From a virus, in the IMG/VR virus record IMGVR_UViG_3300027741_000121, positions 1 through 43,813 of that record: a stretch of 43,813 nt of DNA. One strand, written 5' to 3'. Made by a program: the position numbers and the translations under genes. A model generated the notes under the pieces. It made no database searches, had not been told where the DNA came from, and saw only the letters and a program-made list of their open reading frames with translations. Below are positions 15,969 to 41,252 of the stretch, piece after piece. Position 1 is the stretch's first letter. Every line of letters begins with the position of its first letter.

Positions 15969-16400
15969 TTCTAGGAGTATATCTAATTTGGCTTTACTAG
16001 TACGATTGGATATACTGTTTTTAACGCCCTGATGCAGAGGCTTTGGCCAACAGTTAAAACTACACCAAGCATATCCAGAATGCTCCTCGTTTAAAGTTGG
16101 TACAAATTCTCGATCCACGATTAGTACATAGGTATTATATTGAAAAGTTTGATCATTAGATGTAAACAATTCTAGTGGAATTATTTTACGAATGGTGGGG
16201 GTTTTTCCAACTTCTTCTTGGATTTCTCTATGTAAACAGTCGATTAATGTGATATCTTGTGGCTCTTTTTTGCCCCCCACTAATCCCCAAGTATTGATAG
16301 ATTTCTTTTGAGTTCTCATTAAAAACAAGAATCGGCGAGTGTCCTTGGCCAAAAATAATCCACCACTGCCCACTACTGGCGTTACAAGATTAGTCTCCAT
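15960..16400 (-). CDS. Nudix hydrolase
   Basis: A 146-residue protein with a Nudix box at residues 42-65 (GGKKEPQDI then CLHREIQEEVG). It keeps the metal-binding REIQEE glutamates, with Asp at one usual Glu position. Nudix enzymes hydrolyse nucleoside diphosphates linked to another group; the substrate cannot be read from the sequence. The N-terminus GSGGLFLAKDTRRFLFLMR is the usual first strand pair. The start overlaps the 3' end of the gp15-like gene by 19 bases, so the two are co-transcribed from the minus strand. The 3' end converges on the fibre gene. Confidence 0.88.
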   Translation of the reverse strand: METNLVTPVVGSGGLFLAKDTRRFLFLMRTQKKSINTWGLVGGKKEPQDITLIDCLHREIQEEVGKTPTIRKIIPLELFTSNDQTFQYNTYVLIVDREFVPTLNEEHSGYAWCSFNCWPKPLHQGVKNSISNRTSKAKLDILLELL

Positions 16401-17767
16401 GTTGCCCTGTCATAAATTTTTTCAAAACTTTTACTCCACCAATTGTCTTCCCACTTATATTGTACACCAGTATAGGAATTAGTGATATAGGTAACAGCGG
16501 TTTCTACTTTAGAATTAAAAATTATGTTCCACGTGGAACCATTCCATTGAATAATATCATTGGCAGATGCCTGAAAATCAGTTCCATCATGGTTTTTCCA
16601 AGCAGCTGGTCCATCGTATGGCTGCACAGTTTGGTTCATATTAATGTCTTCTAAAATCAAATATCTAGTCCCAGCCACTGGATTATTTGGATTAAATGTT
16701 TCTGGATCTATGATAGCGTCCACTGTTCCCCGACCATCTATAATAGTGTTTCCGGGTATGGTATCTGGGTTAAAACTCAACATCATTTTTGTTTCATCTA
16801 GTGGATTTAGGCTTATATAAGCTATAATTTCTCCGCCATTTGGTTTAGTTAATCTCAATTGACTTAGCCCAGCACGGAATTGTCCTGGATATAAGTCCAA
16901 TATTTTATACCAACTAGTAGAGTTTTGTCCCGAACTGACATCTAATACATCACCTTGGCTAGTATTGGTAACCAAAGATGCGGAATTATCTAATACCAAT
17001 AGATCAAAATTTCCCGGAGTGACCACCACTGTGGTGTCTGGTATTCCAAACATTTCTATGGCATCTGGGGTAGAAAAATCATTTTGAATTATATTTTGGC
17101 TTACTGCAAAAACATTGGCAATTATCTTGGTAATAATCCCCATTTGTTTGACTTTGGCGGGTGGCGTGATCCAGATGGGAGAAGTAAATGTCAAGTTAGC
17201 AATATCAATATCTTGCTCTAGCCCTTGTGGAACTTGTCTACTGCTCCAAGTTTGAGTAGCCATTTCTAATACGGTAAGACTGGTCCAGTCAATATAATTG
17301 TCTGTGGTCTGTAACTCCATGCTAGGATTAAACAACGCGGCAAGTTGTTCCCAGAGTTGTAATTTTTGTTGAGTATTAGTAGTCCACATGTCTAACGCAA
17401 AGGTTATTTTATATGGACTGGGCATTATGCGTTCTACAGTATAATTCGCACCTTGTGTGTTGAGGTATTCTTGTCCTTGGTCGTCAAACGCTCTTTCTCT
17501 TACTTGTACTTTGTTAACATATGTTGGCTCTTGTATCCTAGATCTATCATATTCTAAATTTTTGATATAACATGCAAAAAAAGGAGCACTTGGTATGGTG
17601 TTTTCACTATTTTTCTTCAAAATATTGCCAACTTGGCGATTTAAATCACCATATCTTACTGGCACCTGAACTAACTGCCCACGCGCATCCATATAACTAA
17701 AGTTACTAACTACTCGCATAAATTGAGTTAAATATCGGGCAACTTGTCCGTCGTATGCATAATCCAT
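16382..17767 (-). CDS. 15: Tail completion / sheath stabiliser, gp15-like
   Basis: A 461-residue protein whose N-terminal ~240 residues follow the T4 gp15 pattern: YLTQFMRVVSNF, VQVPVRYGDLNRQ, FFACYIKNLEYDRSR, then MPSPYKITFALDMWT. In T4, gp15 caps the tail tube and sheath and joins the tail to the head neck. It is much longer than T4 gp15 (about 270 aa). The extra C-terminal ~200 residues include PVAGTRYLILEDI and IIQWNGSTWNIIF, the small module also seen in sheath and gp14. It lies 2 bases downstream of the gp14-like gene. The call rests on pattern and neighbourhood. Confidence 0.7.
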   Translation of the reverse strand: MDYAYDGQVARYLTQFMRVVSNFSYMDARGQLVQVPVRYGDLNRQVGNILKKNSENTIPSAPFFACYIKNLEYDRSRIQEPTYVNKVQVRERAFDDQGQEYLNTQGANYTVERIMPSPYKITFALDMWTTNTQQKLQLWEQLAALFNPSMELQTTDNYIDWTSLTVLEMATQTWSSRQVPQGLEQDIDIANLTFTSPIWITPPAKVKQMGIITKIIANVFAVSQNIIQNDFSTPDAIEMFGIPDTTVVVTPGNFDLLVLDNSASLVTNTSQGDVLDVSSGQNSTSWYKILDLYPGQFRAGLSQLRLTKPNGGEIIAYISLNPLDETKMMLSFNPDTIPGNTIIDGRGTVDAIIDPETFNPNNPVAGTRYLILEDINMNQTVQPYDGPAAWKNHDGTDFQASANDIIQWNGSTWNIIFNSKVETAVTYITNSYTGVQYKWEDNWWSKSFEKIYDRATWRLIL

Positions 17768-17769
17768 TT

Positions 17770-18975
17770 TTAATTATCCGCCTTGGGTTTTAATACTTTA
17801 CTTAGATATTGACGTTCTTGTACCACTGTTCCTGCGATTGTTGCAGTATTATTATTGTTAATAAATCCGGTTTTCAATGTTTCGCGGACTTGTTTTCCAA
17901 CATTTGGACCAGACTGCACGTCTTGATAACCAAAATTATCCAAGGTCATGCGAACATCATCTTGGAATTTAACCCAATTTTTTCCATCGTATCTAAACAA
18001 TCTATTGGGTAGATAATCTGTTCTTAAATAGAATTGACCTGTGGACGGATCACTGGGGAAAGTTATCCCAAACCCATATGGGGCACCGTTTGGTGCGATT
18101 GCAGATCCACCACCATAGGCAACGTACATGTCCATATTTGGAGATTTTAATATCATACTTGCATCATCTGCTGGAACGTCTGAACTAGCATCAACATTTG
18201 ATATTGATCCATTTTCTAAATCAATTAATCCATTAGAAGTCAATGGCAACATAAACATTTGGTTGGTATCGTATCCACTCTTGGGTGCATCCAATTCTGC
18301 TTGGGCAATAATTTGATTATTAATATCAATGTTCTTCTGGTAGGTACTGAGCAGATCTCGCAATGTGCTGCCATCTTCTGCGCCAGAATCTGCGTCCAAA
18401 ATTTCTTTGAATTCTTGACTGTCCACCAGTGGAACACATTTGGCTCTGAGCAAATGTGGGTACCAAGTTGGACTGTATCCAGCAGTTGGTCGACTTACAT
18501 CCTGCACTACATAAAATCTCTTTAATGCTACTATACTGTCATCTAGTGCATATTCATCTTTTTGATGTGGCAATTCTATGACATCACCGCTCATGATTTT
18601 TCTACCCAGCGATTCAAATATAGATCTCAGGTGAAACATAACCATGATAGTATCATTGTTTAGGAACATACCAAATTGACTAAGATTGAAATCAAGATCA
18701 GACATGGTATAAATGCCGCGTATCACATAGACATCTGGGGCATAGTGACGATCACGGTTTTCCATAAACAACACATCTTGGATGCCCAATTCTGGAATAG
18801 GATTGTTATTGGTAGGAGTGGTGGGCGTGCTTTCACCGGCCTGTGGATCTACAGGACCCAAGTATTTGTGAATTAGAATATCAGTGCCACCTACTTGGAA
18901 CTGTTCATTGATAGAACGATCCAAAAATTTGAAATCGGCACCTTTTTCTGGTTTATATAGTGAAAGTCTTGGAAT
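17770..18975 (-). CDS. 14: Neck protein, gp14-like, apparent ATT start
   Basis: The core (LGIQDVLFMENRDR, DVYVIRGIYTMSDL, SQFGMFLNNDTIMVMF, KIMSGDVIELPHQK) follows T4 gp14, a neck protein joining portal and tail. The first ATG/GTG/TTG-type codon is a TTG at 18924. However, a plausible coding extension (PRLSLYKPEKGADFKFLD) continues upstream to an AGGAG ribosome site. The best-spaced codon is ATT at 18975, 9 bases after AGGAG; ACG and ATC lie too close. The C-terminal third has DPSTGQFYLRTDYLPN and RYDGKNWVKF, a module shared with sheath. It is first in a minus-strand operon with gp15 and Nudix. Confidence 0.7.
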   Translation of the reverse strand: MPRLSLYKPEKGADFKFLDRSINEQFQVGGTDILIHKYLGPVDPQAGESTPTTPTNNNPIPELGIQDVLFMENRDRHYAPDVYVIRGIYTMSDLDFNLSQFGMFLNNDTIMVMFHLRSIFESLGRKIMSGDVIELPHQKDEYALDDSIVALKRFYVVQDVSRPTAGYSPTWYPHLLRAKCVPLVDSQEFKEILDADSGAEDGSTLRDLLSTYQKNIDINNQIIAQAELDAPKSGYDTNQMFMLPLTSNGLIDLENGSISNVDASSDVPADDASMILKSPNMDMYVAYGGGSAIAPNGAPYGFGITFPSDPSTGQFYLRTDYLPNRLFRYDGKNWVKFQDDVRMTLDNFGYQDVQSGPNVGKQVRETLKTGFINNNNTATIAGTVVQERQYLSKVLKPKADN

Positions 18976-18996
18976 TTTCGTGATCTCCTAGTACAG

Positions 18997-19004
18997 TATT
19001 TATA
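18997..19004 (-). promoter_or_regulatory. Late promoter, exact TATAAATA (minus strand)
   Basis: The complement of 18997-19004 is TATAAATA. Transcription would begin near 18991, leaving a leader of about 16 bases that contains TAGGAG before the ATT start of the gp14-like gene. It is divergent from the + strand late promoter at 19047. Confidence 0.75.
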
Positions 19005-21264: not shown

Positions 21265-21902
21265 TGCAAAATAATAATCTTGTAATCGGATTTACTGGAA
21301 TGAAGTCAGTGGGCAAAGATACTGCTGCAGATTATTTGGTAAATTATCACGGTTATCGTAGAGAAAGTTTTGCTGGCACACTCAAAGATGCTGTAAGTTC
21401 TATTTTTGGTTGGGATCGTACTCTATTAGAAGGTCGTACTAGGGAATCTAGGGAATGGCGAGAAACCGTTGATCCTTGGTGGGCTGAAAGATTGAATATG
21501 CCCCATCTGACACCCAGATTTGTTCTTCAACATTGGGGAACCGATGTATGCCGAGTAGCATTTCATGACGATATATGGATTTCTAGTTTGGAAAATAAAA
21601 TCTGTAAAACCACCGACAATATTGTTATCAGTGATGTTAGGTTTCCCAATGAGATCAAAGCTATCCATCGTAGTGGGGGCATAGTTATCAGGATTAAACG
21701 TGGACCTGATCCCGAATGGATGGATCAAGCAATATTGGCCAACAATGGCGATGAACACGCTAAACAATATTTGCAAAGTATTAATGTGCATGAATCAGAG
21801 TCATCATGGGCTGGGTGCACTATTGATCATGTCATTTCAAACGATACTACGATTGATGATCTATATCAACAATTGCAGACCTTGATTAGTGATCAGGGAT
21901 AA
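21261..21902 (+). CDS. 1: Deoxynucleoside monophosphate kinase, gp1-like
   Basis: A 213-residue kinase. The P-loop is GFTGMKSVGKDTAADYL near residues 10-26, then FAGTLKDAVSSIFGWDR, the T4 gp1-like lid and base region ETVDPWWAERLNMP, then FVLQHWGTDVCR and VISDVRFPNEIKAI (the Walker-B-like strand). The enzyme phosphorylates dNMPs to dNDPs and feeds the phage dNTP pool. The order of motifs and length match the T4 gp1 family. It is translationally coupled to the glycosyltransferase-like gene by an ATGA overlap. Its 3' end overlaps the convergent HNH-like gene by 17 bases. Confidence 0.9.
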   Translation: MMQNNNLVIGFTGMKSVGKDTAADYLVNYHGYRRESFAGTLKDAVSSIFGWDRTLLEGRTRESREWRETVDPWWAERLNMPHLTPRFVLQHWGTDVCRVAFHDDIWISSLENKICKTTDNIVISDVRFPNEIKAIHRSGGIVIRIKRGPDPEWMDQAILANNGDEHAKQYLQSINVHESESSWAGCTIDHVISNDTTIDDLYQQLQTLISDQG

Positions 21903-22224
21903 GATCTCCACGTTTCCATGGAAGATTCAGTTCGTGCAGTATTCGCTGGCAGTTAGCACATACGGTTTTTAAGTTAGAATAACGGCAGTTGGTTAGATTG
22001 CCGTCAATATGATATACATTGAATTGTTTAGAATACTTTGATGTGTATCCACATCGCTCACAGATATTTTTAAGTTTATATCCAGACTTAGACCATAATG
22101 GGATGCCGGTTCCCCTGTTTTTGGCACAATGGTCGCATTTTGAACGATAGTGCACTTGGCCATCTTTGTAGTAATTGATAGCTACTGGCCGCTGATTGCA
22201 CATGTAACAAATATTTCTAGTCAT
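21886..22224 (-). CDS. HNH-type zinc-ribbon endonuclease-like protein
   Basis: A 112-residue protein with four Cys pairs (CYMC, CDHC, CERC, CANC). The C-terminal core reads VYHIDGNLTNCRYSNLKTVCANCQ, split by an HNH pattern: H, then DGN..N...NL.T+C..CQ. This is the usual layout of small free-standing HNH proteins in phages. It is on the minus strand between dNMP kinase and the sheath gene. Placement on the opposite strand to its neighbours fits a mobile homing gene. A TTAAATA late-type element (complement of 22262-22268) lies upstream. Activity is not shown. Confidence 0.7.
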   Translation of the reverse strand: MTRNICYMCNQRPVAINYYKDGQVHYRSKCDHCAKNRGTGIPLWSKSGYKLKNICERCGYTSKYSKQFNVYHIDGNLTNCRYSNLKTVCANCQRILHELNLPWKRGDLIPDH

Positions 22225-22234
22225 TTTGGTTATC

Positions 22235-22256
22235 GCGCCCTTTTGAGCGCCCTTTT
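22235..22256 (+). repeat. Two 10-base direct repeats GCGCCCTTTT
   Basis: Copies lie at 22235-22244 and 22247-22256 with a 12-base period, in the divergent region between the HNH-like gene and the sheath gene. The GC-rich core stands out from the AT-rich surroundings. It could be a protein-binding site or a weak hairpin through the GCGC parts. Confidence 0.5.
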
Positions 22257-39277: not shown

Positions 39278-40729
39278 GTGCCATCCTGTACAATAGTAAT
39301 CAAAGATGAGGTCAATATCAAGATATTAGATCTTGATCTCGATACCAGAAAAGCATTGGTCAAGAAATTCAAATATGAAGATCCAACTGCCAGATATCGT
39401 CCTGGATTTAAACTAGGTCGATGGGATGGCACTGTGAGCTTTTTTGGTATCGGTGGCACAACTTATTTTAGTATGTTGGGACCTATAGTAGAATATTTGA
39501 CCGAACGTGACTATGAAATCAATGTGCAGGATTTGCGAGTTGACCCCAATCTACAGTTTAAAGAAATAACCGAAGAATACTGGGGAGATACCTGCTGGCC
39601 AGAGGGACATCGGTTTGCCGGGGAGAAAATTAGGTTGCGGGATTATCAAGTTACCGCAGCTAATAATTTTTTGAAAAATCCGCAGGGAGTACAATCGATT
39701 CCAACCGGCAGCGGAAAAACTATTTTAATTGCCACGCTGTGTAAATTATGTGAACCTTATGGTCGTACAATTCTAATTGTTCCTAATAAAAGTTTGGTTG
39801 AACAAACAGAAGAAGATTTTGTTAACTGTGGGTTGGATGTTGGTGTATATTACGGTGATCGTAAACAACTCAACAAAACTCACACGATTTGCACGTGGCA
39901 AAGTTTAAATATTTTGGACAAGAAATCCAAGGATGATGAAGAATTATTAAGTTTGGCTGAGTTTTTAGATGGAGTTAGTGCAGTTATAGTTGATGAATGT
40001 CACACTGCAAAAGCCGATATTATCCGAAAGTTGTTGACCCATAATATAGCCAATGCTCCGATAAGATGGGGTTTGACTGGAACTATTCCAAAATTAGAAA
40101 TTGATTTCCAGAGTATCAGGGCCAGTTTGGGTGACGTAATCAATCATGTTACTGCAAAAGAATTGCAGGATCAAGGTGTGCTCAGTGATTGTCACATTAA
40201 CATCATTCAGACAGAAGAACTTAGAGAATTTGGCAATTATAGAGACGAACTTAAATTCTTGGTTACTGATGAGGATCGTTTGGCTTGGTTGTCGGACTAT
40301 GTAAAAGAAATTGCTAAAACTGGCAATACCATGGTATTGATAGATCGCATTGAAACTGGAAAAACATTAAGGGATAGTATCTCAGACAGCGTGTTTATAT
40401 CTGGGCAAGTAAAGACCAAAGATAGAAAAGAAGAATATCAAGAAGTTGCAGTCAGCGATGGCAATGTGCTCATTTGTACATATGGTGTGGCCGCGGTGGG
40501 TATTAATGTGCCTAGATTGTTCAATATTGTTTTAGTGGAACCTGGAAAAAGTTTTGTGCGCGTGATTCAGAGTATTGGTCGAGGAATGCGTAAAGCCGTA
40601 GACAAAAATCACATAAACGTGTATGATATAACAGCTACTACAAAATATGCTAAACGTCATTTGACCGAACGCAAGCGTTTCTATCGTGAATCCCAATATC
40701 CGTTTACCATGAATAAAGTCAAATATTAA
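39278..40729 (+). CDS. uvsW: DNA/RNA helicase UvsW
   Basis: A superfamily 2 helicase of 483 residues. A small N-terminal domain contains RKALVKKFKYEDP and RYRPGFKLGRWDG. Motif I is SIPTGSGKTILIATL near residue 141, motif II VIVDECHTA near 237, motif III WGLTGTIP, and motif VI QSIGRGMRKAV near 431. In T4, UvsW unwinds R-loops and branched recombination intermediates and ends origin replication. The start is GTG 39278, placed 7 bases after GAGGG. A TTG at 39272 overlapping the upstream stop is a poorer choice. Confidence 0.93.
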   Translation: MPSCTIVIKDEVNIKILDLDLDTRKALVKKFKYEDPTARYRPGFKLGRWDGTVSFFGIGGTTYFSMLGPIVEYLTERDYEINVQDLRVDPNLQFKEITEEYWGDTCWPEGHRFAGEKIRLRDYQVTAANNFLKNPQGVQSIPTGSGKTILIATLCKLCEPYGRTILIVPNKSLVEQTEEDFVNCGLDVGVYYGDRKQLNKTHTICTWQSLNILDKKSKDDEELLSLAEFLDGVSAVIVDECHTAKADIIRKLLTHNIANAPIRWGLTGTIPKLEIDFQSIRASLGDVINHVTAKELQDQGVLSDCHINIIQTEELREFGNYRDELKFLVTDEDRLAWLSDYVKEIAKTGNTMVLIDRIETGKTLRDSISDSVFISGQVKTKDRKEEYQEVAVSDGNVLICTYGVAAVGINVPRLFNIVLVEPGKSFVRVIQSIGRGMRKAVDKNHINVYDITATTKYAKRHLTERKRFYRESQYPFTMNKVKY

Positions 40730-40748
40730 TAATAAAAGAGGCACTAAA

Positions 40749-41252
40749 ATTCAAATTCTAACGTTAGACAACTGTGTTTTTTCACTAAACTCATTACCGG
40801 ATGAGATCGATGATGATCTGCGTTTTGCTGTATTAGATAATTCTGATCACAAGAATCCTGATTATTTTTTTACGCCATTGATTTTTTTGGAGAGTTTCTC
40901 TGGTCCTGCGGTTGTATTAAGCATTGGTCCATATGAACTGACCATGCCATTGGATTGGTGTACTATTGTTGGAGATCCCGGTGGTCCTGAGATGGAAGTT
41001 TTGGCTTTGACCAGTTTAAATGACCGTGGGTTCAGGGCATTCACTTTTAATCCATTGGGTGGGTTTCGTCCAGAATTTTTGGAAATTGATATTATTGATG
41101 TTTATCAAGAAGTAAAATGGTATTTTCCAAAAATGAGACCCAATCAATTATTGTGTACGCCATTGCACGATGGACCCAATCCGACGTGTGCTTATTTTGT
41201 CAAAGAAGTATCAAAGCAATCAGAATTGGTTGATTATACCAAAGCTTGGTAA
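40749..41252 (+). CDS. Conserved hypothetical protein, apparent ATT start
   Basis: The frame upstream of an internal TTG (40878) reads like real protein: QILTLDNCVFSLNSLPDEI, DDLRFAVLDNSDHKNPDYF, then continuing LESFSGPAVVLSIGPYEL, MEVLALTSLNDRGFRAF, WYFPKMRPNQLLCTPLHD and YFVKEVSKQSELVDYTKAW. I recognise this family from T4-like cyanophages, where it is unknown in function and begins near this point. No ATG, GTG or TTG occurs in frame before 40878. ATT 40749 stands 7 bases after AGAGG, an ideal ribosome-site distance. A CTG at 40818 would lose the conserved N-terminus. Confidence 0.65.
   Translation: MQILTLDNCVFSLNSLPDEIDDDLRFAVLDNSDHKNPDYFFTPLIFLESFSGPAVVLSIGPYELTMPLDWCTIVGDPGGPEMEVLALTSLNDRGFRAFTFNPLGGFRPEFLEIDIIDVYQEVKWYFPKMRPNQLLCTPLHDGPNPTCAYFVKEVSKQSELVDYTKAW

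Follow-up and report, generated by a model that had tools for sequence, protein, structure and literature searches.

The window, by which we mean the whole stretch of DNA analysed here, is a 43.8-kb virus record in which a uvsW helicase gene is followed on the same strand by a gene that we call X. The junction between the two genes contains the following features.

39278..40729, plus strand: uvsW helicase, upstream neighbour of X (phrog_16 DNA helicase, E 1.4e-75; Pfam ResIII, DEAD, Helicase_C)
40737..40741, plus strand: AGAGG, putative Shine-Dalgarno sequence (SD) of X, with 7 nt from the end of GAGG to the ATT; anti-SD duplex -5.8 kcal/mol
40749..40751, plus strand: ATT, read here as the start codon of X; family position 1, at the annotated starts of five isolates
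40749..41252, plus strand: gene X, 167 aa when read from the ATT; phrog_11279 (unknown function), E 2.2e-45; alignment of 34 relatives

Two codons, TTG 39272 and GTG 39278, are candidates for the start of uvsW, and its stop lies 19 nt before the ATT of X. The X frame is open after the preceding stop from 40713 up to the TAA at 41250-41252, and in the window it is also open across the uvsW stop. No ATG, GTG or TTG is present in this frame between 40713 and 40748, ahead of the ATT, and the first canonical codon is TTG 40878, 43 codons past it. The initial annotation had placed a family-like N-terminus 43 codons ahead of the first canonical start and had pointed to AGAGG 7 bases before ATT 40749, with no ATG, GTG or TTG in between. 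All these coordinates and numbers were found to be exact, and the family N-terminus does begin at ATT 40749. The sequence GAGGCACTAAA-ATT is common to the window and the sister locus L001.

Several observations point to this ATT as the start. Among the matches listed, 165 distinct sequences, the window being one of them, have the conserved N-terminus of the family starting at this codon, and the match of the X product to phrog_11279 runs from residue 2 on. The annotated starts in PA5oct, Phosso, Atu_ph07, 121Q and RaK2 coincide exactly with the ATT position; PA5oct has TTG there, and the remaining four isolates have ATG; the SCTP-2 homologue was left out of this comparison because its match begins at query residue 25. 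Moreover, codons 2-43 are conserved as protein: between the window and L001, which also has ATT, the codon changes in this stretch are 17 synonymous and 0 nonsynonymous, and those in codons 44-167 are 51 and 9, respectively. X could nevertheless start elsewhere, at the internal TTG, by a frameshift from uvsW, or at a codon misread through an assembly error, given that TTG 40878 is present and that in the window no stop closes the frame where uvsW ends. Against this, codons 2-43 are kept as protein, the upstream frame is closed within 4 codons in several ATT loci, and separate contigs carry identical ATT starts (L010-L012; L095/L097). A sequencing error is very unlikely, given these identical starts and the occurrence of ATT in 12 distinct loci. 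A canonical in-frame start upstream is absent from 11 of the 12 ATT loci, the exception being L135 with a GTG 8 codons up, ahead of its SD, and the downstream canonical codons of the ATT loci are scattered in position. The two findings that would have spoken against the earlier proposal were absent, since no ATG is seen at 40749 and the internal TTG is the start of no homologue examined. The internal TTG, the frameshift and the sequencing error were rejected on the grounds of frame, conservation and recurrence in separate contigs, and a start at any other place is highly improbable. Altogether, homologue alignment, isolate annotations and codon conservation argue strongly that ATT 40749 is the start codon of X, of which we are nearly certain.

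We also looked at the product of X. No Pfam family was found for it. An AlphaFold model of medium quality was obtained (pLDDT 75; 75 to 34 over the five models), and in a structural comparison the 50 matches listed were inteins or hedgehog-type domains, the best with Z 10.8 over 137 residues. A Foldseek search of the model against the PDB gave nothing at E <= 0.001 (best E-value 2.9e-3), and a sequence search gave no match. Residue 1 of the model aligns to about residue 6 of most intein chains, and X ends in an invariant Trp, with no His or Asn at its C-terminus. The region 40749-41249 would encode a predicted Hint fold that resembles inteins but lacks the splicing residues; it would be no splicing intein, since it starts at about intein residue 6 and lacks both the nucleophile and the terminal Asn.

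To define how the start codon varies among relatives, six viral scans were run for X and the best 80 matches of each were kept, with the window, L077, L107 and L098 (ATT), L028 (GTG) and L159 (TTG) as queries. In the first scan, the best 80 viral loci had ATG (69), ATT (8) or GTG (3) at aligned codon 1. Deduplication removed 155 of 321 records and left 166 distinct loci; L171, whose ATG is one codon upstream, was omitted from trees and tables, giving 165 loci with the window included. Among the matches listed, codon 1 of these 165 sequences is ATG in 144, ATT in 12, GTG in 6, CTG in 2 and TTG in 1, and the 12 of 165 is not a frequency, because all six queries were non-ATG and only the best 80 matches were kept for each. 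On a tree of the X coding sequence minus codon 1, ATT requires 10 changes (5-95% bootstrap range, 10), 8 of them forced by well-supported branches. All non-ATG states together require 15 changes, 11 of them forced; two are GTG changes and one is a TTG change, five of the six GTG loci forming one clade. Recombination could mimic repeated gain of ATT. With this limit, ATT appears to have replaced ATG repeatedly among the relatives of X, and a strong ribosome-binding site accompanied every such replacement.

This association was studied with the position of X relative to uvsW. Among the matches listed, 123 ATG loci start at -4 to +4 nt from the uvsW stop, 93 of them overlapping the stop by one base. 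Loci more than 5 nt from the uvsW stop were called uncoupled (n = 36); L007, L009 and L144 were assigned to this group by hand, because their contigs end before uvsW or no uvsW could be identified, whereas six ATG loci in which uvsW was not located stayed among the coupled ones. An SD was called strong at -5.5 kcal/mol, with duplex energies that assume an ordinary anti-SD. Among the uncoupled loci listed, a strong SD precedes 0 of 15 ATG starts and 21 of 21 non-ATG starts. The zero is low, since in seven related contigs 33% of 321 ATG genes have an SD <= -5.5; in the same contigs this value is reached in 5 of 8 GTG genes (0.62) and 8 of 15 TTG genes (0.53). When non-ATG start and strong SD were compared in independent pairs on supported branches, 11 pairs were available, of which 10.8 on average were concordant and none ever opposite (median p 0.001); restricted to uncoupled loci, 6 of 6 were concordant (p 0.03). 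All 12 ATT loci, and all 14 when the CTG loci are added, have GGAG or GAGG 6-7 nt before the start. The GTG and TTG loci have AAGGA, and GGAG/GAGG is absent from all seven. Within the 21 non-ATG loci, a graded trend between codon and SD gave a Spearman coefficient of -0.70, without correction for descent and with rows that are not independent, and it is weakened by the single clade that holds five of the six GTG loci. In nine ATG loci at or near the uvsW stop, an SD-like sequence <= -5.5 lies inside the 3' end of uvsW, and X of the distant isolate 121Q combines AAGGAG with ATG.

The window contains a second ATT-started gene, Y, with the following features.

17770..18975, minus strand: gene Y, 401 aa, virion structural protein (phrog_11591)
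18973..18975, minus strand: ATT, read as the start codon of Y; homologues in 5 other contigs have ATG at the same position
18985..18989, minus strand: AGGAG, putative SD of Y, 9 nt ahead of the ATT; duplex -7.3 kcal/mol
18997..19004, minus strand: TATAAATA, putative T4-like late promoter element, 21 nt ahead of the ATT

By its match to the T4 late consensus, the octamer TATAAATA is a putative T4-like late promoter element. From 81 records, 16 duplicates and 1 short sequence were removed, and the 64 distinct Y loci left have ATG (59) or ATT (5), with about 5 ATT changes on the tree, 4 of them forced. In 57 of the 59 ATG loci, the ATG follows a late-promoter-like NATAAATA or CTAAATA by 5-7 nt, a position that, assuming T4 spacing, would presumably leave almost no leader. 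Of the five ATT loci, four have the element 19-24 nt upstream and the fifth has none within 60 nt, and all five have GGAG 7-9 nt before the ATT, between element and ATT where the element is present. A late-promoter-like element was found at most 40 nt before the start of 40 genes in the window and contigs G001, G002, G004, G005, G010 and G011, at 4-8 nt in 17, at 12-14 nt in 3 and at 18-31 nt in 20. Near-leaderless late genes may therefore be common in these phages, as 17 of the 40 elements are 4-8 nt before the start. In PA5oct (AGGAG), RaK2 (GGAG) and Phosso (GGGAG), a strong SD of Y is combined with ATG. The pairing of strong SD with non-ATG is thus no universal rule, since distant isolates pair a strong SD with ATG.

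The uvsW-X gap itself was searched for inserted genes. By tblastn, HNH/NUMOD3 sequence was found in the gap of 10 of the 36 uncoupled loci, among them 6 of the 12 ATT loci and one CTG locus. Six copies are antisense, all at non-ATG loci, and four are sense, at one ATT and three ATG loci. Pfam domains in the inserts are NUMOD3 (8.8e-22 and 6e-13) and HNH (22.0 bits for a cut-off of 21.4, and 20.3 bits, just under it). In L046 and L288, apparent remnants of a sense endonuclease were noted by eye, without confirmation by the tblastn scan. Where other genes are inserted in the gap, X keeps ATG. An antisense insert breaks the link to uvsW, so X must find its own start signals, which would explain the new signals but leaves the weak codon unexplained. 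Since many uncoupled ATT loci carry an endonuclease insertion, some of the apparent ATT gains may have come from the spread of a single upstream segment and not from new mutations. A group I intron at the junctions was also considered and dropped, as nine loci gave no Rfam match at gathering scores.

These insertions suggest another origin for the ATT, which would ride with the HNH/NUMOD3 insertion: the flank would replace the start region of X, the ATT would destroy the target of the endonuclease, and short-gap loci would be healed remnants. The six ATT loci and one CTG locus with endonuclease sequence and the restriction of antisense copies to non-ATG loci (6/6) are in line with this, as is an endonuclease at another junction, where a gene Z has lost its ATG. 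In T4, segE lies at inh/uvsW and targets uvsW, according to PMC2988022. However, no endonuclease sequence was found in the X gap of the ATT loci of the window, L001, L078, L086 and L098, three sense-strand endonuclease loci retain ATG, and the ATT of Y comes without any sign of an endonuclease in the 106-nt gap of the window, the Y locus that was inspected. We consider this origin unlikely. Separately, a GIY-YIG endonuclease gene (L391, minus strand, G004) or a remnant of one (L356, minus strand, G002) precedes the homologue of the tail sheath stabilizer gene (window 16382-17767); there the homologous ATG reads TCG or ATC, no canonical start is near, and the SD is far upstream, as described for T4 genes 38 and 25. 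A weak HNH endonuclease match was also noticed amid structural genes of the window (21889-22254, minus strand).

Further ATT starts were sought by an ortholog comparison over seven contigs, in which 781 of 1055 genes received a vote, an ATG-started homologue being required. A canonical codon near the ATG of the homologues was absent in 42 genes; ATT stands there in 11 of them, and a strong SD accompanies it in seven, namely X in five contigs, Y of the window and one MPNWC-type gene in G002. The last (L359, minus strand) is a third ATT start with a strong SD, and its homologues have ATG with SDs of -5.6 and -5.8. A second scan of 974 ORFs, which required no ATG homologue, gave no convincing new ATT gene and recovered just 2 of the 7 known ones. 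These counts bear on the idea that the host reads AUU behind a good SD nearly as well as AUG, so that the codon drifts freely. Every ATT does have a strong SD, in line with such drift, but just seven cases among 781 genes, in a count that requires an ATG-started homologue, make free drift quite unlikely.

Since the switches from ATG to ATT come with a strong SD, they suggest that the weak start codon holds output down. The start of X runs into or directly adjoins the uvsW stop in most relatives, where X has ATG with little SD and is presumably fed by re-initiation. Once the junction with uvsW was broken, X would gain a strong SD of its own; the start codon would then weaken, and a strong SD combined with a weak codon would give a low initiation rate. 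In the window, we infer that X is translated from AUU 40749, fMet replacing the encoded Ile. Y would have made the same trade; in its relatives, the ATG lacks an SD and follows a late promoter at short distance. In S. aureus, AUU and AUA starts with an extended SD give about 10% of AUG output, as reported in PMC13009471. Our preferred reading, which we hold to be probable, is that the AUU offsets the strong SD and keeps the output of X low, with selection on output as the cause. The earlier suggestion that the ATT start imposes regulation on X is plausible. A hairpin was looked for over the start region of X in the window, where shuffled sequences folded at least as well (z 0.57); among the eight ATT loci that were folded, L078 reached z -2.67, from a hairpin ahead of the SD. 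ARAGORN found no special initiator tRNA in the window, and four tRNA-Met(CAT) genes in G001 and G002 lack the initiator hallmark, because their 1-72 end is paired (by eye). A large tRNA array and a tmRNA-like gene are present in the 353-kb phage contig G001 (L334-L335, L331, L346).

Control of X by IF3 is possible. An IF3_C model matched 0 of 12 related phage contigs, which may be fragments and are a set apart from the 43.8-kb window, so any such control would act via the host factor. On an IF3 account, sensitivity to IF3 is what is kept: an SD leader would let X and Y escape IF3, and the AUU would restore their tie to the IF3-to-ribosome ratio. Re-initiation is reduced when IF3 is overproduced, to a lesser degree if an SD is present, and leaderless mRNA responds likewise (PMC2268962); non-canonical starts, including the infC ATT, are repressed by IF3 (PMC5472188). 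The dominance of ATT over GTG and TTG (among the matches listed, 12 ATT and 2 CTG against 6 GTG and 1 TTG for X; 5/5 ATT for Y) would also fit. On the other hand, X shows two GTG changes and one TTG change, codons that IF3 tolerates better, and no ATA or ATC was seen at X starts. IF3 should treat ATA and ATC like ATT. We regard this IF3 account as doubtful. In its wider form, SD-less re-initiation, a leaderless AUG, and an SD with AUU would be three equivalent ways of keeping two unrelated genes subject to discrimination by IF3, the last restoring a lost sensitivity; this form is rather unlikely. A recurrent ATT accompanied by a strong SD agrees with rate-setting by the weak codon no less than with IF3 control.

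AUU starts are known, and they are usually regarded as a handful of fixed oddities, infC being one. Their recurrence in phage genes was not found in the literature searched, most subscription journals being outside that search; judged by title and abstract, no paper listed there describes a phage gene with an AUU start. If these readings are right, the real N-terminus of such genes escapes gene finders, and the families are natural swaps of SD and start codon, in which the trade-off of codon, SD, coupling and IF3 is directly testable. PMC5622118 reports one AUG to AUU switch per 61,358 ancestral AUG starts over many prokaryote genomes, against which the X family needs 8-10 and the Y family 4-5, a rough comparison because that study used annotated starts and close genomes and the trees here are deep.

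Among known systems, E. coli infC resembles X in having an AUU start with an SD (PMC5472188); infC is autoregulated by its own product, whereas X belongs to a phage, has no assigned function and carries an ATT that varies among relatives. The S. aureus genes cvfC1 (AUU) and ccpN (AUA) likewise combine a weak start codon with a strong SD, but their codon is conserved within a group (PMC13009471), whereas the ATT of X and Y appears to have been gained repeatedly. Streptomyces sigR, with GTC, is close to our reading of X as a non-canonical start limiting output; sigR is a cellular sigma factor for which repression by IF3 was shown by experiment (PMC5472188). The free-standing seg and mob genes of T4 resemble the X gap as endonuclease genes between conserved genes, with segE beside uvsW (PMC2988022); in the X gap, the HNH/NUMOD3 sequence is behind uvsW and is linked to a changed start codon of the next gene. 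Finally, the compensation between start codon and SD described for prokaryotes, where non-AUG starts have a stronger SD, is the pattern seen for X, although in PMC5622118 nearly all switches are to GUG or UUG, with AUU once, whereas here they are mostly to ATT.
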